This document shows, one piece after another, positions 25,289-59,687 of a DNA stretch of 64,000 nucleotides. The notes under the pieces were generated by a model. It ran no database searches, was not told the origin of the DNA, and was given only the letters and a program-made list of their open reading frames with translations. Each line of letters begins with the position of its first letter. Position 1 is the first letter of the stretch. Both the position numbers and the translations under genes were made by a program. Source of the stretch: Microtetraspora sp. NBRC 16547 (GTDB lineage Bacteria > Actinomycetota > Actinomycetes > Streptosporangiales > Streptosporangiaceae); the NCBI RefSeq assembly GCF_030268965.1, contig NZ_BSSE01000027.1, positions 1 through 64,000 on the forward strand. Direction: 5' to 3'.

Positions 25289-26095
25289 ATGACGACTGAT
25301 TCGGCGATCCGGCACAGGCGATCCTCACTCGGGACCAGGCTCGCCTGCGCGACGGGTCTGGTGCTGACCGCACTGGGCACGGCGACGTCCGTGCAGGCGC
25401 AGGCCGCGACCGCCCCGCCTCGGATCGGAGTGCTCAAGTCCGACGGCAGCGCTCTCGTCAAGGAGGGGGGCCTGTCCACCACCTGGGTGACCGAGAACAC
25501 CGACATCATCCAGGTCGCTCTCGCGGGCAGCCGCATCGGCGTTCTCAAGTCCGACGGCAGCGCCTGGGTCAAGGAGGGCGGTCTCTCCACCAACTGGGTG
25601 CTCGAAAACACCGATGTCAAGCAGATCGCCCTGTCCGGCGACCGCATCGGTGTTCTCAAGGCGAACGGCACGGCGCTGGTGAAGGAGGGTGGCCTGTCTG
25701 CGACGTGGGTGACGGAGAACACTGATGTCAAGCAGATCGCCCTGTCCGGCGACCGCATCGGTGTCCTGAAGGCGAACGGCACGGCGCTGGTGAAGGAGGG
25801 TGGCCTGTCTGCGACGTGGGTGACGGAGAACACTGATGTCAAGCAGATCGCCCTGTCCGGCGACCGCATCGGTGTTCTCAAGGCGAACGGCACGGCGCTG
25901 GTGAAGGAGGGTGGCCTGTCCACCAGCTGGGTGACCGAGAACACCGACACCATCCAGATCGCTCTCGCGGGCAGCCGCATCGGCGTTCTCAAGTCCGACG
26001 GCACCGCGCTGGTCAAGGAGGGCGGCCTGTCCGCCACCTGGGTGACGGAGAACACCGACGTCACCCAGATCGCCCTTGCCGGCGGCACTGACTGA
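25289..26095 (+). CDS. Secreted tectonin/tachylectin-like protein of six 37-residue repeats
   Basis: A 268-residue exported protein. The signal peptide (about residues 1-39, hydrophobic LACATGLVLTALGTATSV, cleavage likely after AQA) is followed at residue 45 by six consecutive 37-residue units of the form RIGVL-(K)-xDGxxxVKEGGLSxxWVxENTDxxQxALxG. The pattern of one Trp per unit and the WV.E motif is like the blades of tectonin or tachylectin propellers, which bind sugars. Six blades would close one propeller. Repeats 3 and 4 are almost identical in DNA. GGAGG precedes the ATG by five bases. Lectin function is inference. Confidence 0.8.
   Translation: MTTDSAIRHRRSSLGTRLACATGLVLTALGTATSVQAQAATAPPRIGVLKSDGSALVKEGGLSTTWVTENTDIIQVALAGSRIGVLKSDGSAWVKEGGLSTNWVLENTDVKQIALSGDRIGVLKANGTALVKEGGLSATWVTENTDVKQIALSGDRIGVLKANGTALVKEGGLSATWVTENTDVKQIALSGDRIGVLKANGTALVKEGGLSTSWVTENTDTIQIALAGSRIGVLKSDGTALVKEGGLSATWVTENTDVTQIALAGGTD
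25421..26086 (+). repeat. Six tandem 111-bp coding repeats
   Basis: Period 111 bp, starting 25421, 25532, 25643, 25754, 25865 and 25976. The middle copies are nearly identical in DNA, including silent positions, which points to recent duplication or gene conversion inside the gene. Confidence 0.85.
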
Positions 26096-39601: not shown

Positions 39602-41869
<2,268 letters not shown>

Positions 41870-42179: not shown

Positions 42180-43826
42180 TCACGGAAGGCGGAGCCGTTT
42201 CCGCCTGGTCACGACGCGCAGGTCGGCCTCGATCCGGGCGGCCGTCTCGGTAAGCGGGGGCAGCAGCGCCGCGAGCGTCTCCTCGACGGGACCCCGCGCC
42301 GCGTGCGTCGCGACATTGAGCGCGGCCACGACCCGGCCCGTCCCATCCCTGACCGGGACGGCCAGCGAGCGCAGCCCCGCCTCCAGCTCCTCGTCGACGA
42401 AGGCGTGGCCCCGCTCCGCGACGCCATCGACGATCTCCGCCAGCTCGGCGGGATCCGTGACGGTCCGCTCGGTGATGGGGCGCAGCGCCGTACCGGCCAG
42501 CAGGGCCGCGCGCTCGGAGTGCGGGAGGTCGGCGAGCAGTACCCGGCCCATCGAGGTCGCGTACGCGGGGAAGCGGGTGCCCAGCGTGATGTCCACGCTC
42601 ATGATGCTGTAGGTCGGCACGCGGGCGACGTAGCGGATGTCGTCGCCGTCGAGCACCGCCATGGACGCCGACTCGCGCGTGCGCCGGACCAGATCCGCCA
42701 TGTGCGGCTGGACGATCTCGGCGAAGCCGAGCGACGACAGGTGGGCGTAGCCGAGCTCGAGCACGCGCGGCAGTAGCCGGAAGTCGTGCCCGGTGCGCTC
42801 GACGTAGCCGAGGTGCTCCAGGGTGAGCAGGGCGCGCCGCGCGGTGGCCCTGGCCAGGCCGGTGGCCTCGGCGACCGCCGTGAGCGGGCGCGGGCCGTCG
42901 AGCGCGCACATCACCGTGAGGCCCCTGGCCAGCGACTGCAGGAACTCCGGGCCCAGCTCGCGCTTGGCCGTACGCGCGGGGTCGGCGCCCACGGCGTTGG
43001 CGGCCGTGCCGCCCGCACCCTCGGTGGCGGCGGTGCGCGAGGTCCCGGCCCGCTCCGCGAGGGAGCGCGCGAGAGCCTCCTCCATGGCGCTGGTCTCCGC
43101 GCGCAGCCGGGGCAGCGTGGCCTCGGCGAGCGAGGCGGCCGTGTGCCTGCTGGTGTGGCTCGCCACGCTGACCGCGCAGGCCGTGCGGCCGTCCGGGCCG
43201 CGCACGGGCACGGCCACCGCGACGAGGCCGGGCTCGATGAGCTGGTCGTCCGCCGACCAGCCGTCGGCCGCGGCGCGGGCGACCCGCCGGTCGAACTCCT
43301 CCGCGCTCGCGGCGGGGCGGGCGGGCACGGCGGGAAAACGCTCGGGGGAGTCCCGCCGCTCGAGCCACGCGGCGCGGGCGGTCTCGTCCCACTCGGCGGC
43401 GAACAGCGCTCCGGGGGCGCAGCGCTCCGCGGGCAGCAGGTCGCCGATGCGGAACGCCAGCGACATGGTGCGGCGGCGGGTGATCTGGGTGACGAACCTG
43501 ACGCCGTCGCCGTCCGGCACCGCGATGGAGACCGACTCGTCGAACTCGTCGGCCAGCCGCTCGGCGACCGGCCCGAGCGCGTCGGGAACGCCGCATCCCG
43601 TGAGGTAGGCGTTGCCGGGCTCCATCAGCGGCGGGGCGAGCTCGACCTCGCGGTCGGTCTCGCGGAGATGGCCGAGGTGGACGAGCGTGGCCAGCACGCG
43701 GTCGACGGTCGAGCGGGCGAGGCCGGTGGCCCGGGCGAGCTCGCTCGGGCGCATCCGGTGCCCGCCGGGCGCCGACATGGCGCGCAGCACGGTCAGCCCT
43801 CGTTCGAGCGGCCCGACGACATCCAT
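42180..43826 (-). CDS. IclR family regulator with two tandem IclR modules, probable pca/pob regulator
   Basis: A 548-residue protein that is two complete IclR proteins in a row. Module 1 (residues ~5-265): HTH LERGLTVLRAMSAPGGHRMRPSELARATGLARSTVDRVLATLVHLG, effector domain with SIAVPDGDGVRFVTQIT. Module 2 (~295-545): SLARGLTVMCALDGPRPLTAVAEATGLARATARRALLTLEHLGYV, effector domain ASMAVLDGDDIRYVARVPTYSIMSVDITLGTRFPAYATSMGRVLL, closely PcaR/PcaU-like. Divergent from pcaI with operator-like repeats between, so it probably activates the operon in response to protocatechuate or 3-oxoadipate. Two DNA-binding heads in one chain could grip paired sites. Confidence 0.9.
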   Translation of the reverse strand: MDVVGPLERGLTVLRAMSAPGGHRMRPSELARATGLARSTVDRVLATLVHLGHLRETDREVELAPPLMEPGNAYLTGCGVPDALGPVAERLADEFDESVSIAVPDGDGVRFVTQITRRRTMSLAFRIGDLLPAERCAPGALFAAEWDETARAAWLERRDSPERFPAVPARPAASAEEFDRRVARAAADGWSADDQLIEPGLVAVAVPVRGPDGRTACAVSVASHTSRHTAASLAEATLPRLRAETSAMEEALARSLAERAGTSRTAATEGAGGTAANAVGADPARTAKRELGPEFLQSLARGLTVMCALDGPRPLTAVAEATGLARATARRALLTLEHLGYVERTGHDFRLLPRVLELGYAHLSSLGFAEIVQPHMADLVRRTRESASMAVLDGDDIRYVARVPTYSIMSVDITLGTRFPAYATSMGRVLLADLPHSERAALLAGTALRPITERTVTDPAELAEIVDGVAERGHAFVDEELEAGLRSLAVPVRDGTGRVVAALNVATHAARGPVEETLAALLPPLTETAARIEADLRVVTRRKRLRLP

Positions 43827-43911: not shown

Positions 43912-44721
43912 ATGGCAGAGATCCGGAGTCTGCGTGACGCCGTGGCCGAGCTCATCCACGACGGCGACACCGTCGCCATGGAGGGCTTCACCCATCTGAT
44001 CCCGTTCGCGGCCGCGCACGAGATCATTCGCCAGGGCATCACGGATCTGACCCTCGTCCGCATGACCCCCGACGTGATCTACGACCAGCTCATCGGCATG
44101 GGCACCGCGCGGCGGCTTGTCTTCTCCTGGGGCGGCAACCCCGGCGTGGGTTCGCTGCACCGGTTCCGCGACGCGGTGGAGAACGGCTGGCCGCGCCCGC
44201 TGGAGCTCGACGAGCACAGCCACGCGGGCATGGCGAACCGCTACGTCGCGGGCGCCTCCCGGCTGCCGTTCGCCGTGCTGCGGGGCTACCGCGGCAGCGA
44301 CCTGCCGAAGCGGTCCTCGACCATCGCGACGGTCACCTGCCCGTTCACGGGTGAGGAGCTGGCCGCCGTCGCGGCGGTGAACCCCGACGTGACGGTCATC
44401 CACGCCCAGCGGGCCGATCGGGAGGGCAACGTCCAGCTCTGGGGCCTCGTCGGCGTGCAGAAGGAGGCCGCGCTCGCCGCCGACCGGGTCCTGGTCACCG
44501 TGGAGGAGATCGTCGAGGAGCTGAAGCCCCGGCCGGACGCCGTGGTCCTGCCGAGCTGGACGGTGCACGCCGTGGCGCACGTCCCGGGCGGCGCCCACCC
44601 GTCGTACGCCGCGGGCTACACCGTCCGTGACAACGAGTTCTACCAGGCATGGGATCCCATCTCCCGCGACCGCGAGACGTTCCTCGCCTGGATGCGCGAG
44701 CACGTGCTGGAGGCATCGTGA
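43912..44721 (+). CDS. pcaI: 3-oxoadipate CoA-transferase subunit A
   Basis: A 269-residue family I CoA-transferase alpha subunit. It transfers CoA from succinyl-CoA to 3-oxoadipate with PcaJ. Visible: LRDAVAELIHDGDTVAMEGFTHLIPFAAAHEIIRQ, LTLVRMTPDVIYDQLIGMG, VIHAQRADREGNVQLWGLVG and QKEAALAADRVLVTVEEIVEEL. The ATG follows GAGGAG closely. It is the first gene of an eight-gene operon whose order, I-J-F-H-G-B-L-pobA, is typical for actinobacteria. Confidence 0.94.
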   Translation: MAEIRSLRDAVAELIHDGDTVAMEGFTHLIPFAAAHEIIRQGITDLTLVRMTPDVIYDQLIGMGTARRLVFSWGGNPGVGSLHRFRDAVENGWPRPLELDEHSHAGMANRYVAGASRLPFAVLRGYRGSDLPKRSSTIATVTCPFTGEELAAVAAVNPDVTVIHAQRADREGNVQLWGLVGVQKEAALAADRVLVTVEEIVEELKPRPDAVVLPSWTVHAVAHVPGGAHPSYAAGYTVRDNEFYQAWDPISRDRETFLAWMREHVLEAS

Positions 44722-45599
44722 ACGGCACCGCGAACGGCACTGCGAACGGCACTGCGAACGGCACCGCGAACGGCACTGCGAACGGCACCGCGAATGGCAC
44801 CGTCGAGGGGGCGGGGAGCGGCGCCGCGCAGCCGGCCGCGGCGTGGGCGCCCGACGAGTTGATGACCGTCAACGCCGCGCGGGCCCTCAGCGGCTCCCGG
44901 ACCTGCTTCGTCGGCATCGGCCTCCCCAGCGCCGCCGCCAACCTGGCCCGCCGTACGTCCCAGCCGGACCTCGTCCTGATCTACGAGTCGGGCACGCTCG
45001 GGTCCAAGCCGAGCCGGCTGCCGCTGTCGATCGGCGATGGCGAGCTGGCCGACACCGCCGACGCCGTGGTGTCCGTGCCCGAGATCTTCAACTACTGGCT
45101 GCAGGCCGGCCGGATTGACGTCGGCTTCCTCGGCGCCGCGCAGGTCGACCGGTACGCCAACATCAACACGACCGTCATCGACCGCGGCCCCGACCGGCCC
45201 GAGGGCCGCCTCCCGGGTGCGGGCGGCGCGCCGGAGATCGCGGCGAGCTGCCGCAAGGTGCTCATGGTGCTGCGCCACTCCCGGCGCAACTTCGTGGAGC
45301 GACTCGACTTCGTCACCACCGTGGGGCACGGCTCCGGCCCCGGCGACCGGGCCAGGCTGGGACTCCTGGGCGAGGGCCCGGTGGCCGTGATCACCGATCT
45401 CGGTGTGCTCCGCCCCGACCCTGAGACGGCCGAGCTCGTCCTCACCGAGATCCACCCGGGCGTCACCGTCGAGCAGGTGACCGAGGCGACCGGCTGGAAG
45501 CTTCGGGTCGCCGACGGCGTCGGCGTCACCGAACCCCCCACCCAGGCCGAGCTGGCCGCGCTTCGTGCGCTCAAGACCGGAGGTGATCCCCGTGCGTGA
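44718..45599 (+). CDS. pcaJ: 3-oxoadipate CoA-transferase subunit B with a repetitive N-terminal extension
   Basis: A 293-residue beta subunit; the usual protein starts near the DELMTVNAARAL segment at residue ~50. Features: TCFVGIGLPSAAANLARRT, the catalytic glutamate in IYESGTLG, and FLGAAQVDRYANINTTVI. Here the GTG overlaps the pcaI stop (GTGA) and opens a 30-residue tract of NGTA repeats plus a linker. A later start (ATG in the DELMTV segment) would avoid the tract but has no Shine-Dalgarno. The repeat is in frame and adds a flexible tail. Confidence 0.92.
   Translation: MNGTANGTANGTANGTANGTANGTANGTVEGAGSGAAQPAAAWAPDELMTVNAARALSGSRTCFVGIGLPSAAANLARRTSQPDLVLIYESGTLGSKPSRLPLSIGDGELADTADAVVSVPEIFNYWLQAGRIDVGFLGAAQVDRYANINTTVIDRGPDRPEGRLPGAGGAPEIAASCRKVLMVLRHSRRNFVERLDFVTTVGHGSGPGDRARLGLLGEGPVAVITDLGVLRPDPETAELVLTEIHPGVTVEQVTEATGWKLRVADGVGVTEPPTQAELAALRALKTGGDPRA
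44721..44804 (+). repeat. Seven 12-bp tandem repeats at the start of pcaJ
   Basis: Seven consecutive 12-mers, AACGGCAC(C/T)GCG with one AAT variant at the end, encode Asn-Gly-Thr-Ala units. They begin directly after the GTG start codon. Confidence 0.95.
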
Positions 45600-46764
45600 C
45601 GTCTACATCGTCGACGCCGTCCGCACTCCCATCGGCAGGTACGGCGGAGCGTTGTCCGGCGTGCGGCCGGACGACCTCGCCGCGCACGTGATGCGCGCGC
45701 TCGCCGACCGCACTTCGGAGCTGGACCTCGCGCGCGTGGACGACGTGGTGTTCGGCAACGCCAACGGCGCGGGCGAGGAGAACCGCAACGTCGCCCGCAT
45801 GGCTGCCCTGCTCGCCGGGTTCCCGGTGACCGTCCCGGGCAGCACGGTCAACCGGCTCTGCGGCTCCGGGATGGAGGCCGTGATCCAGGCCTACCGCGCC
45901 ATCGCGGTCGGGGACGCCTCCGTGGTGGTCGCGGGCGGCGTCGAGTCGATGAGCCGCGCGCCCTGGGTCGTGCCCAAGCCCGAGCGGGCGTTCCCCGCCG
46001 GACACCAGCAGATGGTGTCCACCACGCTCGGCTGGCGGCTGGTCAACCCCCGCATGCCGGAGGAGTGGACCATCGCGCTGGGCGAGAGCGCCGAGCTCCT
46101 CGCCGACGAATACGCCGTGACCCGCGAGGCCCAGGACGCCTTCGCCCTCGCCAGCCACGAGAAGGCGGCCCGCGCCTGGAAGGACGGCGCGTACGCCGCC
46201 GAGGTCGTCCCCGTGAACGACCTCGTCCGCGACGAGGGCATCCGCGAGGACACCTCGCTGGAGGCGCTGGCCAAGCTCAAGCCCGCCTTCAGGAAGGGCG
46301 GCACGGTCACCGCCGGCAACTCCTCTCCGCTGAACGACGGCGCGGCCGCGCTGCTGCTCACCGACGAGGCCGGGCTGGCCGCCACCGGGCGCGAGCCGCT
46401 CGCGCGGATCCGGGCCTCCGCCGTGACCGCGATCGAGCCGCAGTACTTCGGCGTCGGCCCGGTCGAGGCGGTGAACCGGGCTCTCGGACGCGCCTCACGG
46501 AGCCTCGGCGACTTGCTGACCTTCGAGCTGAACGAGGCGTTCGCCGCCCAGGCGCTGTCCTGCCTCGGCCAGTGGCCCGGCCTCGACCCGGCCGTCGTCA
46601 ACCCGCGCGGCGGCGCCATCGCTATCGGCCACCCGCTGGGCGCCTCCGGCGCCCGGATCACCGGGGCGGTCGCCCACCAGCTCGCGGCGGCCGGTTCCGG
46701 AACCGGCCTGGCCGCGCTCTGCATCGGCGTGGGCCAGGGCCTCGCCGTCGTCCTTGAACGCTGA
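45592..46764 (+). CDS. pcaF: 3-oxoadipyl-CoA/acetyl-CoA thiolase
   Basis: A 390-residue thiolase that cleaves 3-oxoadipyl-CoA to succinyl-CoA and acetyl-CoA. Catalytic residues are seen: nucleophile Cys in VNRLCGSGMEA (about residue 91), the His of GHPLGASGARITG and the second Cys in CIGVGQGLA. Overlaps pcaJ by eight bases; its GTG has a very strong GGAGGTGATC upstream, inside pcaJ. Ends 48 bp before pcaH. Confidence 0.95.
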   Translation: MRDVYIVDAVRTPIGRYGGALSGVRPDDLAAHVMRALADRTSELDLARVDDVVFGNANGAGEENRNVARMAALLAGFPVTVPGSTVNRLCGSGMEAVIQAYRAIAVGDASVVVAGGVESMSRAPWVVPKPERAFPAGHQQMVSTTLGWRLVNPRMPEEWTIALGESAELLADEYAVTREAQDAFALASHEKAARAWKDGAYAAEVVPVNDLVRDEGIREDTSLEALAKLKPAFRKGGTVTAGNSSPLNDGAAALLLTDEAGLAATGREPLARIRASAVTAIEPQYFGVGPVEAVNRALGRASRSLGDLLTFELNEAFAAQALSCLGQWPGLDPAVVNPRGGAIAIGHPLGASGARITGAVAHQLAAAGSGTGLAALCIGVGQGLAVVLER

Positions 46765-46786
46765 CCGGCGAAGGAGCGAGCCCCTC

Positions 46787-46816
46787 ATGACCATGACAGC
46801 GAGGAGGCAGGCGTGA
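46787..46816 (+). CDS. Nine-codon mini-cistron overlapping the pcaH start
   Basis: ATG 46787 opens MTMTARRQA, preceded by AAGGAG (46771-46776). Its TGA overlaps the pcaH GTG (GTGA). Two consecutive AGG codons also make up the pcaH Shine-Dalgarno. It may couple pcaH to pcaF, but pcaH can also start unaided. Confidence 0.35.
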   Translation: MTMTARRQA

Positions 46817-47592
46817 GCACGACCCCTCCGACTCCAGAACCCCAGGCCGTCATCGACGCCGAGATGGCGCGGATCCAGACGGATGCCGACAAGGCGCTCG
46901 CCGACGGCGGCCAGGAGGAGCTCCAGCCGCGACGCGACTACCCGCCCTACCGAAGCTCCGACCTCCGCCACCCCAAGCGGCCCCTCGTCGCCGCGCGGGA
47001 GGCGTTCACCGAACTGCGCGGGCCGGTGTTCGGCGTGACCGACGTGACGGAGCTGGACAGCGACCTCACCCGCCAGCACCATGGCGAACCGCTCGGCGAG
47101 CGGATCGTCGTGACCGGGCGGGTCCTCGACCGGGACGGCCGCCCGGTGCGCGGCCAGCTTGTGGAGATCTGGCAGGCCAACGCGGCCGGCCGGTACGCGC
47201 ACAAGCGCGACCAGCACCCCGCGCCGCTCGATCCCAACTTCACCGGAACCGGCCGCTGCCTCACCGACGACGAGGGCCGTTACACCTTCACCAGCATCAA
47301 GCCGGGCGCGTACCCGTGGCGCAACCACCAGAACGCCTGGCGCCCGGCGCACATCCACTTCTCGCTGTTCGGCACGGCCTTCACCCAGCGGCTCGTCACC
47401 CAGTTGTACTTCCCGGGTGATCCGTTGCTCGCGTACGACCCGATCTTCAACTCGATCACCGACGAGCGGGCGCGGCAGCGCCTGAGCGCCGTCTACGACC
47501 ATGACCTGTCCAGCCCCGAATGGTCGCTCGGTTACCGTTGGGACATCGTCCTCGACGGGCCGTCCGCGACCTGGATGGAGGAAGGCCGTTGA
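46813..47592 (+). CDS. pcaH: Protocatechuate 3,4-dioxygenase beta subunit
   Basis: A 259-residue intradiol dioxygenase subunit carrying the non-haem Fe(III). The N-terminal part (RRDYPPYRSSDLRHPKRPLV) is typical of PcaH. Iron ligands lie in GAYPWRNHQNAWRPAHIHFSLFG (Tyr, His, His) plus the Tyr of the upstream NAAGRYAHKRD segment. It opens protocatechuate to 3-carboxy-cis,cis-muconate with PcaG. GAGGAGG lies five bases before the GTG. Confidence 0.95.
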   Translation: MSTTPPTPEPQAVIDAEMARIQTDADKALADGGQEELQPRRDYPPYRSSDLRHPKRPLVAAREAFTELRGPVFGVTDVTELDSDLTRQHHGEPLGERIVVTGRVLDRDGRPVRGQLVEIWQANAAGRYAHKRDQHPAPLDPNFTGTGRCLTDDEGRYTFTSIKPGAYPWRNHQNAWRPAHIHFSLFGTAFTQRLVTQLYFPGDPLLAYDPIFNSITDERARQRLSAVYDHDLSSPEWSLGYRWDIVLDGPSATWMEEGR

Positions 47593-48155
47593 GACCGCCC
47601 ACACCGTCCCAGACCGTCGGTCCCTTCTTCGGCTACGCGCTGCCGTTCGCGGAAGGGGGAGAGCTCGTCCCGTCCGGGCATCCGGGTGCGATCACGGTGC
47701 ACGGCGTGGTCTACGACGGCGCCGGTCAGCCGATCCCCGACGCGCTGCTGGAGTTCTGGCAGGCTGACTCCGCCGGAGGGCTCGACGGCGGGCCGGGCTC
47801 GATGCGCCGTGACCCGGTCACCGGCACGTTCGCCGGCCGCTCCGGCGTCGGGTTCACCGGGTTCGGGCGGGTCGCGACCGATGCCGACGGCCACTGGACC
47901 ATCCGCACCCTCACCCCGGGCCCGGCCGCTCCCGGCACCCTGCCGTACATCTCGGTGTGCGTCTTCGCGCGCGGGCTGCTGCACCACCTGTACACCCGCG
48001 TCTACCTGGAGGACGCGGCGGGCGACCCGTTGCTCGACTCCCTCGACGCGGACCGCCGCGCCACGCTGGTCGCCCGGCCCGAGCCGCACGCGACCTACCG
48101 GTTCGACATCCATCTCCAGGGCAGCGAGGAGACGGTCTTCCTTGAGTTCGGCTGA
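47589..48155 (+). CDS. pcaG: Protocatechuate 3,4-dioxygenase alpha subunit
   Basis: A 188-residue subunit without iron: PPTPSQTVGPFFGYALPF start, GVVYDGAGQPIPDALLEFWQAD, then ARGLLHHLYTRVYLED where PcaH has the iron site, and YRFDIHLQGSEETVFLEF end. It starts at TTG 47589, overlapping the pcaH stop (TTGA), with GGAAGG just upstream. The alpha/beta heterodimer is the active unit. A GTG or ATG start is not available near the homologous N-terminus, which supports the TTG. Confidence 0.93.
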   Translation: MRPPTPSQTVGPFFGYALPFAEGGELVPSGHPGAITVHGVVYDGAGQPIPDALLEFWQADSAGGLDGGPGSMRRDPVTGTFAGRSGVGFTGFGRVATDADGHWTIRTLTPGPAAPGTLPYISVCVFARGLLHHLYTRVYLEDAAGDPLLDSLDADRRATLVARPEPHATYRFDIHLQGSEETVFLEFG

Positions 48156-49659
48156 GAGTTCGGCTGAGAGTCTGGCTGGGAGTCTGGCTGGAAGCCCGGC
48201 CGGCGAGCCGGGCCTGCTCACGCCCGTCTGGACCGGTAGCGCCGTCGAGGCCGCCACGGGCGACATCGCCGTGCTGCGGGCCATGCTCGACGCCGAGGCG
48301 GCGCTCGCCCGGGCCCAGGCCGCGCTCGGGGTCGTCCCGGGCGCGGCGGCCGATGTGGTGTGCGAGGCGGCCGACGTCCGGCTCTACGACGTGCGGGACA
48401 TCGCGTCCCGGGCCAGGTCCGGCGGCAACCCGGCGATCCCGCTGGTCGCCGATCTCACCGCCGCCGTGGCCCGCCGCTCGCCCGAGGCCGCGCCGTACGT
48501 GCACCTGGGGGCGACCAGCCAGGACATTGTGGACACGGCGCTGATGCTGGTGGCGTCCCGGGCGCTTCCGCTGATCATCGACGATCTGGGCCGCGCCGCC
48601 GACGCGCTGGCCCGGCTCGCCGCCGAGCACCGCGACACAGTGCTGCCCGGCCGCACCCTCACCCAGCACGCCGTCCCCACCACCTTCGGACTGAAGGCGG
48701 CGGGGTGGCGGGCGCTGGTCCTCGACGCCATGGACCGCCTCTCCCGGGTCGTCCTGCCCGCGCAGCTCGGCGGCGCCGCCGGAACGCTGGCCGCCTTCCA
48801 GGAGTACGCCTTCCAGGAGTACGCCTTCCAGGAGTACGCCGTTCAGGAGCACGCCGGGAACGGCACCGGAGACGGCTCCGCGCAGGGGCCCGCGGAGCGC
48901 GCCGTGGAGGGCGAGAAGGGGGGCGCTGCGGAGTGCGCCGCTCTGGCGCTGCTCCGCGGGTTCGCCGCGGAGACCGGGCTGGCCGAGCCGCCGCTGCCCT
49001 GGCACGTGCTGCGGACGCCGGTCGCCGACCTCGGGGCCGCTCTCGCCTTCACCGCCGCCGCCCTCGGCAAGATGGCCGCCGACGTGCTGGTCCTGTCCCG
49101 CACCGAGATCGGCGAGGTCGCCGAGGGCGCGGGCGGCGGGTCCTCCGCGATGCCGCACAAGAGCAACCCGGTCCGGGCCACGCTCGTGGCGGCCGTCGCG
49201 CGGCAGGCTCCCGCGCTCGCCGCCGTCCTCCTTGGGTGCCTCTCGGCCGAGGACGAGCGGCCCCCGGGCGCGTGGCACGCCGAATGGCCGGCCCTGCGCG
49301 AGCTGCTGCGGCTCGCGGGCGGGGCCGCGACGAGTGCCGCCGAGCTGGCCGAGGGGTTGCGGGTCCATCCCGGCCGGATGCGCGCCAACCTCGACCGCAC
49401 CGGTGGTCTCCTCCTCGCGGAACGCCTCGCGGTGGCGCTCACCCCGCTGATGGGCCGCGCCGAGGCCAGGGCCACCGTGGAACGCGCCTCCCGCAGGTCG
49501 GCCGCCGAGGAGATCGGCCTGGCCGAGGCGTTGCGGGACGAACGACTCCCCTTCACGGAGGAAGAGCTGCGCCGCCTGCTCGACCCCGCCACGTACGTGG
49601 GCCCCGCGCCGGCGCTGACCGATCGGGCCCTTCGCCGCCAGCCGCAGGTCAAGGAGTGA
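48142..49659 (+). CDS. pcaB: 3-carboxy-cis,cis-muconate cycloisomerase with repeat insertions
   Basis: A ~505-residue member of the fumarase/aspartase superfamily, longer than the usual ~450. The signature GGGSSAMPHKSNPVRATL and the catalytic HLGATSQDIVDTALML are intact. Start: TTG 48142 inside pcaG, the only reasonable start; it opens five SxAx repeats. A second insertion at residues ~218-262 has three FQEYA units, one VQEHA, then a Gly/Ala/Glu-rich stretch (GNGTGDGSAQGPAERAVEGEKGG) before the normal sequence resumes with ECAALALLRGFAAETGL. Confidence 0.92.
   Translation: MSSAESSAESLAGSLAGSPAGEPGLLTPVWTGSAVEAATGDIAVLRAMLDAEAALARAQAALGVVPGAAADVVCEAADVRLYDVRDIASRARSGGNPAIPLVADLTAAVARRSPEAAPYVHLGATSQDIVDTALMLVASRALPLIIDDLGRAADALARLAAEHRDTVLPGRTLTQHAVPTTFGLKAAGWRALVLDAMDRLSRVVLPAQLGGAAGTLAAFQEYAFQEYAFQEYAVQEHAGNGTGDGSAQGPAERAVEGEKGGAAECAALALLRGFAAETGLAEPPLPWHVLRTPVADLGAALAFTAAALGKMAADVLVLSRTEIGEVAEGAGGGSSAMPHKSNPVRATLVAAVARQAPALAAVLLGCLSAEDERPPGAWHAEWPALRELLRLAGGAATSAAELAEGLRVHPGRMRANLDRTGGLLLAERLAVALTPLMGRAEARATVERASRRSAAEEIGLAEALRDERLPFTEEELRRLLDPATYVGPAPALTDRALRRQPQVKE
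48145..48204 (+). repeat. Five 12-bp tandem repeats at the start of pcaB
   Basis: Units AGTTCGGCTGAG (twice), AGTCTGGCTGGG, AGTCTGGCTGGA and AGCCCGGCCGGC follow the TTG directly. They encode SSAE, SSAE, SLAG, SLAG, SPAG. The first overlaps the pcaG stop codon. Confidence 0.9.
48793..48852 (+). repeat. Four 15-bp tandem repeats inside pcaB
   Basis: GCCTTCCAGGAGTAC occurs three times (48793-48837), followed by a diverged copy GCCGTTCAGGAGCAC. They encode AFQEY units in a surface insertion. Confidence 0.95.
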
Positions 49660-49661
49660 CG

Positions 49662-50858
49662 ATGAATCCCGCCCACGCACCTGGGACTTCCGGAACCTCC
49701 GGGATGCCCGCCACCTCCGGGGCGCCGCGCCTGCACCATCGCGCTGAAGGCCCGGCGAGCGCCCCCGCGCTCCTGCTCGGCCCCTCGCTCGGCACCTCGC
49801 TCGCCGTCTGGGACCCGCAGGTACCCGCGCTCGCCCGCGACCACCGGGTCGTACGGTGGGACCTGCCCGGGCACGGGGACTCCCCGTCCGCGCTTCCGGA
49901 GGGGGCCACGATCGCGGACCTCGCCGCGCTCGTCCTCGACGTGGCCGACAGCCTGGGCATCGACCGGTTCCACTACGCCGGGATCTCCCTGGGCGGCGCG
50001 GTCGGCGCGTGGCTGGCGCTCCACCATCCCGAGCGGGTGTCCTCGCTGACCATGGTCTGCTCGTCGGCATGGTTCGGCCCCGCCGACGGGTGGCGCGAGC
50101 GGGCCGCCGTCGTCCGGGCGAAGGGCACCGGCGTCATGGCCGAGAGCGCCGTCCAGCGGTGGTTCACCCCCGCGTTCGATGGAGCCGGCCCGTTCCTCGA
50201 GCACCTGCGCGGGGTCGCCGCCGACGGATACGCCGCCTGCTGCGACGCGCTGGCCTCATACGACGTCCGTGCCGAGCTGGGCGGGATCGCCGCGCCGACC
50301 CTGGTCATCGGCGGGCGGGACGACCCGGCCACGCCGCCCGCGCACGCCCGCGAGCTGGCGGACGGCATCCCCGGCGCGACGCTCGTGGAGATCCCGGGCA
50401 CCGCCCATCTGGCCGGTGTGGAACGGCCCGAGCCCGTGCTCACAGCCCTGCTCGCCCACCTCGGCGACGGGGACGGCGCGCGCCGGTACGCCGCCGGCAT
50501 GGGCGTGCGCCGTGCGGTGCTCGGGGACGCGCACGTGGACCGCGCGACCGCGAACGTCGACGCGTTCACGGCCGACTTCCAGGACTTCATCACCCGCTAC
50601 GCGTGGGGCGAGATCTGGACGAGGCCCGGCCTGGACCGCCGGACGCGCAGCTGCGTCACGCTGACCGCCCTCGTCGCGGGCGGACACCTGGAGGAGCTGG
50701 CGATGCACGTCAGAGCCGCCCTCCGCAACGGGCTCACCCCCGACGAGATCAAGGAAGTCCTGCTGCAGTCCGCCGTGTACTGCGGCGTCCCGGCCGCCAA
50801 CGCGGCCTTCGCCGTGGCGCAGCGCACGCTCCGCGAGTCCCAGGAGCCGAACCGATGA
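49662..50858 (+). CDS. pcaL: 3-oxoadipate enol-lactonase / 4-carboxymuconolactone decarboxylase fusion
   Basis: A 398-residue bifunctional enzyme (PcaD-PcaC). Residues ~20-265: alpha/beta hydrolase with the nucleophile in YAGISLGGAVG, Asp in GGRDDPATPP and His in IPGTAHLAG. Residues ~275-398: carboxymuconolactone decarboxylase (FTADFQDFITRYAWGEIWTRPGLDRRTRS, then VAGGHLEELAMHVRAALRNG). It catalyses the two steps from carboxymuconolactone to 3-oxoadipate. The N-terminal 20 residues are a GTSG-rich repeat tail not found in typical PcaL. ATG with AAGGAG eight bases upstream. Confidence 0.94.
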   Translation: MNPAHAPGTSGTSGMPATSGAPRLHHRAEGPASAPALLLGPSLGTSLAVWDPQVPALARDHRVVRWDLPGHGDSPSALPEGATIADLAALVLDVADSLGIDRFHYAGISLGGAVGAWLALHHPERVSSLTMVCSSAWFGPADGWRERAAVVRAKGTGVMAESAVQRWFTPAFDGAGPFLEHLRGVAADGYAACCDALASYDVRAELGGIAAPTLVIGGRDDPATPPAHARELADGIPGATLVEIPGTAHLAGVERPEPVLTALLAHLGDGDGARRYAAGMGVRRAVLGDAHVDRATANVDAFTADFQDFITRYAWGEIWTRPGLDRRTRSCVTLTALVAGGHLEELAMHVRAALRNGLTPDEIKEVLLQSAVYCGVPAANAAFAVAQRTLRESQEPNR

Positions 50859-52042
50859 GCATCCCCACCCGCACCACCGTCGCGATCATCGGAGCCGGCC
50901 CCGCCGGGCTGCTCCTGGCCCGGCTCCTCCGGCGCGCCGGCATCGACTCCGTCGTACTTGAGCACCGCGACCGCGCGTACATCGAGCAGCGCCAGCGCGC
51001 CGGCATCCTGGAGCAGGGAACGATCGACGTGCTGCGCGAGTGCGGCGCGGGCGAGCGGATGGACCGCCAGGGACTCCCGCACAACGGCGTCGAGCTGCGG
51101 TTCGACCGCCGAGGCCACCGGATCGACTTCCCCTCGCTCACCGGCGGCCGCGCCGTCATGGTCTACGCCCAGACCGAGATGGTGAAGGACCTGGTCGCGC
51201 TCCAGCTCGCCGACGGCGACCCGCTGCTGTTCGAGGCGCAGGCCGTCGCCGTCGAGGGGCTGGAGTCCGGGCAGCCGTCCGTCCGGTACGTCCACGAGGG
51301 CGGCGAGCGGACCCTGTCCTGCGACTTCGTCGTGGGGTGCGACGGATTCCACGGCATCGCGCGGGCCGCAGTCCCGTCCGGGGTGCTGCGGACCTTCGAG
51401 CGGGAGTACCCCTACTCCTGGCTCGGCATCCTGGCCGACGTGCCGCCGTCGTCCGACGAGCTGATCTACGCGCACTCCGACCACGGGTTCGCCCTGCTCA
51501 GCATGCGCTCGCCGAGCGTCAGCCGGCTCTACCTCCAGGTGCCGAACGGCACGAACGCCGCCGACTGGCCGGACGAGCGGATCTGGGACGAGCTCGACCT
51601 CCGGTTCGCCGTGGACGGCGACTGGAAGCTGGAGCGCGGCCCGATCACCTCCAAGTCGGTCACTCCGATGCGCAGCTTCGTCGCCGAGCCCATGCGGTAC
51701 GGCCCGCTGTTCCTTGCCGGGGACGCCGCGCACATCGTGCCGCCGACCGGGGCCAAGGGGCTCAACCTCGCGGTATCGGACGTCGTCGTCCTGGCCGAGG
51801 CGCTCACTCGGTGGCACGACACCGGGAGCACCGGCCTGCTCGACGCGTACTCGGACACCTCCCTGCGCCGGGTCTGGAGGGCCGAGCACTTCTCCTACTT
51901 CATGACCACGACGCTGCACCCCGACCCGGCGCAGAGCGACTTCGACACCCGGTTGCAGCTCTCCCAGCTGCACCGGATCGCCGATTCCGAGGCCGCGGCG
52001 ACGGAGCTGGCGCAGAACTACGTCGGCATCCCCTTCGAGTGA
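50855..52042 (+). CDS. pobA: 4-hydroxybenzoate 3-monooxygenase
   Basis: A 395-residue FAD monooxygenase that turns 4-hydroxybenzoate into protocatechuate, feeding the operon. FAD motifs: VAIIGAGPAGLLLARLLRRAG (GxGxxG), CDFVVGCDGFHGIAR and GPLFLAGDAAHIVPPTGAKGLNLA. Substrate-site features of PHBH are present (RQRAGILEQGTIDVL; PYSWLGILAD). It overlaps pcaL by four bases (ATGA) and is the last gene of the operon. A 4-HB-specific transporter is not in the window. Confidence 0.95.
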   Translation: MSIPTRTTVAIIGAGPAGLLLARLLRRAGIDSVVLEHRDRAYIEQRQRAGILEQGTIDVLRECGAGERMDRQGLPHNGVELRFDRRGHRIDFPSLTGGRAVMVYAQTEMVKDLVALQLADGDPLLFEAQAVAVEGLESGQPSVRYVHEGGERTLSCDFVVGCDGFHGIARAAVPSGVLRTFEREYPYSWLGILADVPPSSDELIYAHSDHGFALLSMRSPSVSRLYLQVPNGTNAADWPDERIWDELDLRFAVDGDWKLERGPITSKSVTPMRSFVAEPMRYGPLFLAGDAAHIVPPTGAKGLNLAVSDVVVLAEALTRWHDTGSTGLLDAYSDTSLRRVWRAEHFSYFMTTTLHPDPAQSDFDTRLQLSQLHRIADSEAAATELAQNYVGIPFE

Positions 52043-52164
52043 TCGCGGGCCCGCGTCCACGCCCTCTGATCAGCAGGCGTCTGGTCGGAGGGCGTGTGGT
52101 CGGCGGGCGTGTGGTCGGAGGGCTCCGCCCGCCCCGATGGTGCACGCAGGTGCGCTATGACGTA

Positions 52165-57369: not shown

Positions 57370-57439
57370 GAAGTCGCCCGAAGTCGCCCGGAGTCGCCCG
57401 GAGTCGCCCGGAGTCGCCCGGAGTCGGTCGGAGTCAGCC
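57370..57439 (+). repeat. Seven tandem 10-bp intergenic repeats
   Basis: Units G(A/G)AGTCGCCC repeat seven times, the last two diverged. They lie in the 379-bp gene-free gap 57264-57642. Confidence 0.9.
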
Positions 57440-57517
57440 GGGAAGACGACGGCGCCCGGTGACCTCGCGAGGAGGCACCGGGCGGACGCCGCACAGGCCG
57501 GCGCGGATCGGCGCGAG

Positions 57518-57630
57518 CCGGCCCGTAAAAACCGGCCCGTAAAAACCGGTCGGTACGAAGCGGTCGGTAGGGAGCGATCAGTACGAAGCGTGTACGAGCC
57601 GGCCCGTACGACCGGCCCGTACGACCGGCG
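57518..57630 (+). repeat. CCGGCCCGTAAAAA and related repeats
   Basis: CCGGCCCGTAAAAA occurs twice in tandem (57518-57545), followed by degenerate copies of the type CCGG(C/T)C(C/G)GTACGA. The A-tracts are unusual for this genome. Apart from these repeats the gap holds nothing recognisable. Confidence 0.75.
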
Positions 57631-59531: not shown

Positions 59532-59564
59532 CACAGCCCCGCCACAGCCCCGCCACAGCCCCGC
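59532..59564 (+). repeat. Three tandem 11-bp repeats (CACAGCCCCGC)
   Basis: Perfect tandem units between the DUF3311 start and the CocE stop. Nearby (59618-59660) GATCAGACGGAAGGCC is also duplicated. No gene lies in 59430-59687. Confidence 0.85.
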
Positions 59565-59687
59565 GCCGGACCCCGAACCCGCCCGCGCCGGGCCGGAATC
59601 CGGGACCCGTCCTGATCAGACGGAAGGCCGTACAGATCAGACGGAAGGCCCGTACGGGTCAGGCGGACGATTACGCGGACGGGACGG

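Follow-up and report, generated by a model that had tools for sequence, protein, structure and literature searches.

The aromatic-degradation (pca) operon of Microtetraspora sp. NBRC 16547 lies at positions 43912-52042 of the 64,000-nucleotide stretch analyzed here (the window; contig NZ_BSSE01000027.1) and carries short tandem repeats at the starts of pcaJ and pcaB, inside pcaB and after its last gene. These arrays are probably the product of ordinary tandem-duplication turnover, filtered by reading frame and by the tolerance of each site. The operon itself is unremarkable and is part of a wider minisatellite background in a repeat-rich genome. The genome of the window species (G000) was compared with those of three further species of the same genus (G001, G002 and G003), with one genome per species. 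The operon order pcaI-J-F-H-G-B-L-pobA is backed by family searches.

The N-terminal array of PcaJ (44718-44801, + strand) consists of seven 12-bp units of the form GTG/GCG AAY GGC ACY, encoding (M)NGT(ANGT)6, with the GTG start codon inside unit 1. Tandem Repeats Finder (TRF) reports it with 7.6 copies and a score of 140. The N-terminal array of PcaB (48145-48204, +) comprises five 12-bp units, SSAE SSAE SLAG SLAG SPAG; the unit corresponds to codons 2-5 and overlaps the end and the stop of pcaG (TGA 48153-48155), which is spanned by unit 1 and recurs in unit 2. TRF recognized 3.4 of its five units (score 61), so that it is clear by eye and weaker by score. The third array lies inside pcaB (48792-48855, +; 15 bp × 4.3, AFQEY, score 107). 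All three had been described in an earlier sequence-only reading of the window and were recovered as described there. The same reading had also listed a repeat tail at the start of pcaL and had placed all repeats in frame. A low-complexity N-terminal linker, GTSGTSGMPATSG, is indeed present in PcaL, with a weak 9-bp periodicity of about three loose steps in 49662-49733, where TRF gives no row even at score 30. The pcaJ and pcaB arrays are in frame; the array at 52076-52123 (+, 15 bp × 3.2) is non-coding and lies shortly 3' of the pobA stop (52042), behind the last gene of the operon.

Within the genus, the pcaJ array occurs only in G000 and its sister G003; G001 and G002 have no array and a shorter linker. 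In G003 (L037 3310-3325) the pcaI stop/pcaJ start is itself doubled, CCGTGACCGTGA, which gives two in-frame GTG codons. In both cases unit 1 takes in the start codon and the three codons behind it (GTG AAC GGC ACC in G000, GTG AAC AAC ACA in G003), and later copies have GCG or GCC for GTG. In start-codon register the units of the two species are alike at 9 of 12 bases, and codons 2-5 of the array-less pcaJ of G001 are alike at 9/12 bases with the unit of each. Likeness of 9/12 has a chance probability of P 0.004 among random in-frame 12-mers in register and of 0.006 for a shuffled unit; if codon rotation is allowed, the respective values are 0.016 and 0.024. On the operon protein tree G000 and G003 are sisters (FastTree 0.997, ultrafast bootstrap 81). 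A first reading that took the two units to be unrelated was revised on the strength of the register comparison and of this sister relationship. The arrays may have been born once on the shared branch, with later divergence of the unit, or twice from one seed; from the sequences, the two histories are indistinguishable. A dispersed repeat family was ruled out for the pcaJ unit, whose pattern occurs at a single place across the four genomes of the genus; no such search was made for the other arrays. A contig search with the exact 33-base pattern of the unit found four stretches in other actinobacteria, which shows merely that the motif can arise elsewhere.

Each PcaB array was found in one of the four species. 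The loop segment AFQEYA/AFHEYA occurs once in each of G001-G003 and has been amplified in G000 alone, according to the protein alignment, which stays in frame across the four species; flank projection did not settle one of the three length comparisons at this site (-95). In pcaL, G003 carries a PET × 4 run. A repetitive PcaB N-terminus is also seen in another genus (L048 of G023, SGGSSGGLSGGSSGGLFGG).

Array abundance was surveyed with TRF (period 6-30, score cut-offs 50, 60 or 70) in non-random stretches that included the pca region and favoured large contigs. For G000 these were 238 kb, namely the 98-kb window contig in full and 140 kb of a second contig. At a score of at least 70, G000 has 35 arrays, including those of the operon (14.7 per 100 kb). 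The counts are 17 in 220 kb for G001, 12 in 200 kb for G002 and 17 in 200 kb for G003, or 81 in 858 kb for the four genomes. A comparison set of 15 genomes from 15 other genera gave 39 arrays in 1,140 kb, 3.4 per 100 kb pooled, with a range of 0-10 by genome. First-order Markov simulations (140 kb after contig C10 of G000 and 200 kb after G003) yielded no array at a score of at least 70, and five and two arrays, respectively, at 50 or more. Chance therefore does not account for the two strong coding arrays, which score 140 and 107.

The operon with its trailing array (43912-52123) holds seven arrays of score at least 50, where 2.76 would be expected (Poisson P 0.023, unadjusted). The sequence-only reading had implied that the operon is peculiar on account of its repeats. 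This did not hold up, and a scan statistic over the sampled contigs ruled out an operon-specific hot spot: in the two sampled contigs the densest stretches of 8.2 kb contain 11 and 9 arrays, and an equal or greater density turns up somewhere in 92% of random placements. At score 70 the operon has three arrays against 1.21 expected (densest stretches 4 and 4), and at score 100 two against 0.41 (densest 2 and 2). Of the slippage-prone context that had been suggested, a minisatellite-rich genome with tolerant sites remains, and no property special to this operon. Loss of the mismatch-repair protein NucS does not explain the array density, since NucS_C is matched over its cut-off in all four genus genomes (39 of the 41 genomes searched).

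For counts of array placement, genes were called with a home-made codon-usage caller. Among 219 arrays of the genus with a score of at least 50, 100 lie inside genes (153 expected), 27 after stops (6.7 expected), 68 in start zones (50 expected) and 24 elsewhere (9.4 expected). Periods divisible by three were found for 86/100 arrays inside genes, 48/68 in start zones, 11/27 after stops and 17/24 elsewhere. The 60 arrays found in four genomes from other genera were distributed as 34 inside genes (37.8 expected), one after stops (2.4) and 22 in start zones (14.9). Orthologous sites in the four genus species were mapped for arrays of score at least 60 by both flanks; arrays with unmapped flanks were excluded, and all arrays of G000:C10 fell outside this mapping, the corresponding regions of the relatives not being included. 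With differences of 0 or above 300 excluded, length differences between orthologous sites were multiples of three in 32/36 cases inside genes, 28/42 in start zones, 5/20 after stops and 2/3 elsewhere. Turnover was followed for arrays with at least three copies, some sites such as pcaJ being counted from both sides. In 67 orthologous comparisons the counterpart had no array of score 50 in 53 cases, a different unit in 14 and the same unit in none; the pcaJ pair of G000 and G003 was scored here as a different unit, in spite of its likeness in register. Further places where two species carry different arrays include C6:89672-89780 of G001 (20 bp), with a 13-bp array at the corresponding place in G003.

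Arrays that straddle a stop exceed random placement in the genus. At score 60 they number 14 of 131 against 6.2 expected, a value reached in 0 of 300 simulations (two of the 14 are from this operon). The figures are 15/219 against 9.1 at score 50 (14/300 simulations) and 10/81 against 4.5 at score 70 (5/300). Part of this excess may follow from the depletion inside genes, because random placement ignores that depletion. A tandem-run score around gene starts, middles and ends picked out few genes: 6, 4 and 13 among 596 of the genus, and 2, 1 and 7 among 768 from other genera.

These observations would be accounted for as follows. Tandem duplication, with slippage or unequal exchange, would produce short minisatellites throughout a repeat-rich actinomycete genome, and these would persist chiefly at places that tolerate insertions, such as disordered N-terminal tails, a loop or the DNA just behind a stop codon. 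Where a stop and a start overlap, a duplication across both could be unusually safe: the upstream protein would still terminate at its first stop, and the downstream protein would retain its original start and acquire an in-frame tail if the unit length is divisible by three. The presumed seeds are the first four codons of pcaJ (with GCG for GTG later), codons 2-5 over the pcaG stop for pcaB, and a pre-existing FQEYA segment in the PcaB loop. The arrays would then arise, diverge and disappear from species to species.

Several results weigh against this account. The idea of tolerant junctions is borne out only in part, by the excess at stops in the genus. At called starts of the genus there is no excess of straddling arrays (4/131 against 6.4 expected at score 60, 5/219 against 9.6 at score 50), and none was seen for stop-straddling arrays in other genera (3/87 against 3.8, 6/194 against 7.5). 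The caller placed the start of pcaB at 48271 and that of pcaL at 49704, both misplaced, and did not shift pcaJ downstream; the start-zone and start-straddling counts are therefore rough. A burst of arrays confined to the genus is weakened by G006, G011, G014 and G018, which at score 70 or more have 6.7-10 arrays per 100 kb, values that fall within or exceed the 6.0-8.5 of G001-G003, and by G010 and G011, which at score 50 or more exceed G000 (39.0 and 37.5 against 33.6 per 100 kb). The pcaJ copies of G000 vary at 2 of 12 positions and differ at synonymous positions exclusively, a pattern that could reflect weak selection on the peptide. Slippage or unequal exchange is a mechanism that we infer rather than observe; near-neutrality of the arrays, the safety of the junctions and instability within a species are likewise what we infer.

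Because the starts and the frames are kept in three same-genus species, it is very probable that the junction repeats are translated. The GTG start of pcaJ (44718), with its 4-bp GTGA overlap with the pcaI stop, is retained in G001 and G002; GGAGG just 5' of this start, and the TTG start of pcaB (48142) with its upstream AGGAG, are kept in all four species. The N-terminal lengths of PcaJ and PcaB in G001-G003 differ from those in G000 by multiples of three nucleotides throughout. The alignment with related species proposed in the sequence-only reading shows that the junction arrays follow conserved starts without a break in frame and that their presence varies by species. Untranslated arrays with true starts farther downstream, for example at the ATG within DELMTVN in pcaJ, would agree with the later starts called for pcaB and pcaL, not with that of pcaJ, and with the short N-termini of several orthologs from other genera; given the conserved GGAGG and AGGAG motifs and the length steps, such starts are most improbable. 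That the repeats stand outside the usual enzyme domains was borne out, as the CoA_trans Pfam match in PcaJ starts at residue 50. AlphaFold models were built from shallow alignments (PcaJ, 13 rows, mean predicted local distance difference test (pLDDT) 63.9; PcaB, 17 rows, mean 78.9). Residues 1-40 of PcaJ and 1-26 of PcaB have pLDDT below 50, including a short helix modelled at 7-14 in the PcaB tail. The N-terminal tails of both proteins thus appear disorder-like in low-confidence models. The internal PcaB repeat (about residues 218-238) falls within a modelled helix, 210-238, also of low confidence, its block means from residue 211 onward being 58-66.

Selection on such linkers for protein function (subunit association or solubility), with variable length itself favoured, would be compatible with the synonymous differences among the pcaJ copies and with hydrophilic tails of low pLDDT. 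This proposal, which the sequence-only reading had raised, found little positive evidence and is very unlikely: within the genus the pcaJ array is absent from two of four species and each pcaB array from three, and arrays of a similar kind fill non-coding gaps. A tuning of translation, in which the pcaJ repeat loosens messenger RNA structure at the coupled start and copy number acts as a rheostat on PcaJ and on the balance of operon products, is slightly less unlikely. The predicted folding energy of the pcaJ region -20 to +60 is -23.3 kcal/mol in G000 and -16.1 kcal/mol in G003, both with the array (22% and 2% of the called starts of the respective genome are less structured), and -37.1 and -32.2 kcal/mol in G001 and G002 without it (86% and 77%). 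The weaker predicted folding of pcaJ start regions that carry an array is the single sign of a functional effect. Upstream repeat length is reported to be linked to the expression of fpg1 in Mycobacterium tuberculosis (PMC2734929). The pcaB start behaves unlike that of pcaJ, with 82% in G000 with the array and 83%, 90% and 56% in the three species without it; moreover, the pcaJ array is missing from half of the species and represents one or two independent events. A broader version of the turnover account, in which stop/start overlaps are safe landing sites where units derived from the opening codons of the gene downstream repeatedly make unstable disordered N-terminal linkers in housekeeping operons, and may also set initiation strength (as at pcaJ in two sister species), is a speculation with a small chance of being right. 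Ordinary turnover filtered by frame and tolerance remains the preferred explanation.

The genes pcaI, pcaJ, pcaG, pcaB and pcaL are encoded on the + strand. pcaI (43912..44721), whose TGA overlaps the pcaJ start, encodes a coenzyme A (CoA) transferase alpha-type subunit (Pfam PF01144 over cut-off, TIGR02429 below its cut-off), and pcaJ (44718..45599) a 3-oxoadipate CoA-transferase beta-type subunit (PF01144, CoA_trans, over cut-off; NCBIfam TIGR02428 below). The thiolase domain of PcaF is over its Pfam cut-off, and the NCBIfam pcaF model, like those of pcaI and pcaJ, was matched below cut-off. Models over their NCBIfam cut-offs are those of PcaH, PcaG, PcaB, PcaDC (= PcaL) and the PRK08243 4-hydroxybenzoate 3-monooxygenase model (PobA). 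pcaG (47589..48155) encodes the alpha subunit of protocatechuate 3,4-dioxygenase (TIGR02423), and pcaB (48142..49659), with its TTG start inside pcaG, 3-carboxy-cis,cis-muconate cycloisomerase (TIGR02426); the nitrosuccinate lyase model NF052556 outscores TIGR02426 on PcaB, yet stays below its own cut-off. The bifunctional pcaL (PcaDC) extends over 49662..50858 (NF051488). A divergent regulator of the PcaR/PcaU type (42180-43826, - strand, 548 aa) contains two tandem IclR units (HTH_IclR × 2, IclR_C × 2). Arrays just upstream of pcaI in G001 (C6:75352-75965) and G003 (9 bp × 5.4) fall, by position, within the divergent IclR regulator gene. Elsewhere in the window, clusters of unrelated short-period arrays lie near called starts and after called stops at 57372-57629 (10, 14, 14 and 13 bp) and 59532-59667 (11 and 21 bp); the place of the first cluster is occupied by a 17-bp array in G001, and in G002 it is shorter and has no array. 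TRF also reports six 111-bp tandem units at 25424-26084 and two 285-bp units with 95% matches at 40725-41300, by appearance a recent duplication.

Phase-variable contingency loci are simple sequence repeats, slippage-type arrays at gene starts in which a change in unit number switches the reading frame. The arrays described here resemble them in type and position; they differ in that the coding units are multiples of three and the genes encode catabolic enzymes. Coding units of these lengths give no on/off switching by frame (promoter spacing was not examined). The arrays are frame-preserving coding minisatellites, similar to variable number tandem repeats (VNTR), with periods of 12, 12 and 15 bp divisible by three, and are absent or different in close relatives. 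For the tandem repeats of Borgs, PMC9879509 describes rapid independent formation of many fast-evolving arrays, genic and intergenic, some of which start within the end of a reading frame, with units divisible by three in frames and disordered products. Coding units divisible by three, independent formation and disorder are shared by the arrays studied here, the disorder being judged from pLDDT only and the internal PcaB array being a low-confidence helix. Borg arrays, according to that paper, are mostly perfect, A-rich, located on Borg extrachromosomal elements and virtually absent from the host, whereas those reported here are imperfect, GC-rich and located in a 7.8 Mb bacterial assembly, with a lower pooled density in related genera. 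A further parallel (PMC2734929) is offered by the mycobacterial interspersed repetitive units (MIRU/VNTR) of M. tuberculosis, repeats at the gene junctions of a high-GC actinomycete with lineage-restricted expansion: the rnc-fpg1 stop-to-start gap is 279-358 bp in the tuberculosis complex versus 1-54 bp in the other species tabulated. MIRU units, however, are 40-100 bp long and occur at 41 places, while the units here measure 12 and 15 bp, the pcaJ unit occurs at one place and the junction arrays are coding. Literature searches, which were not made by genus name, gave no repeats in a pca operon among titles and abstract openings.

The case is a GC-rich bacterial example, with readable seeds, that adds to the known logic of tandem repeats. 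What appeared to be a special operon becomes part of a wider background of minisatellite turnover at tolerant sites, and the four species together allow the seed, the unit and the frame filter to be read off cleanly. As by-products, it provides candidate VNTR markers for the genus and a testable idea of why gene junctions gather repeats.

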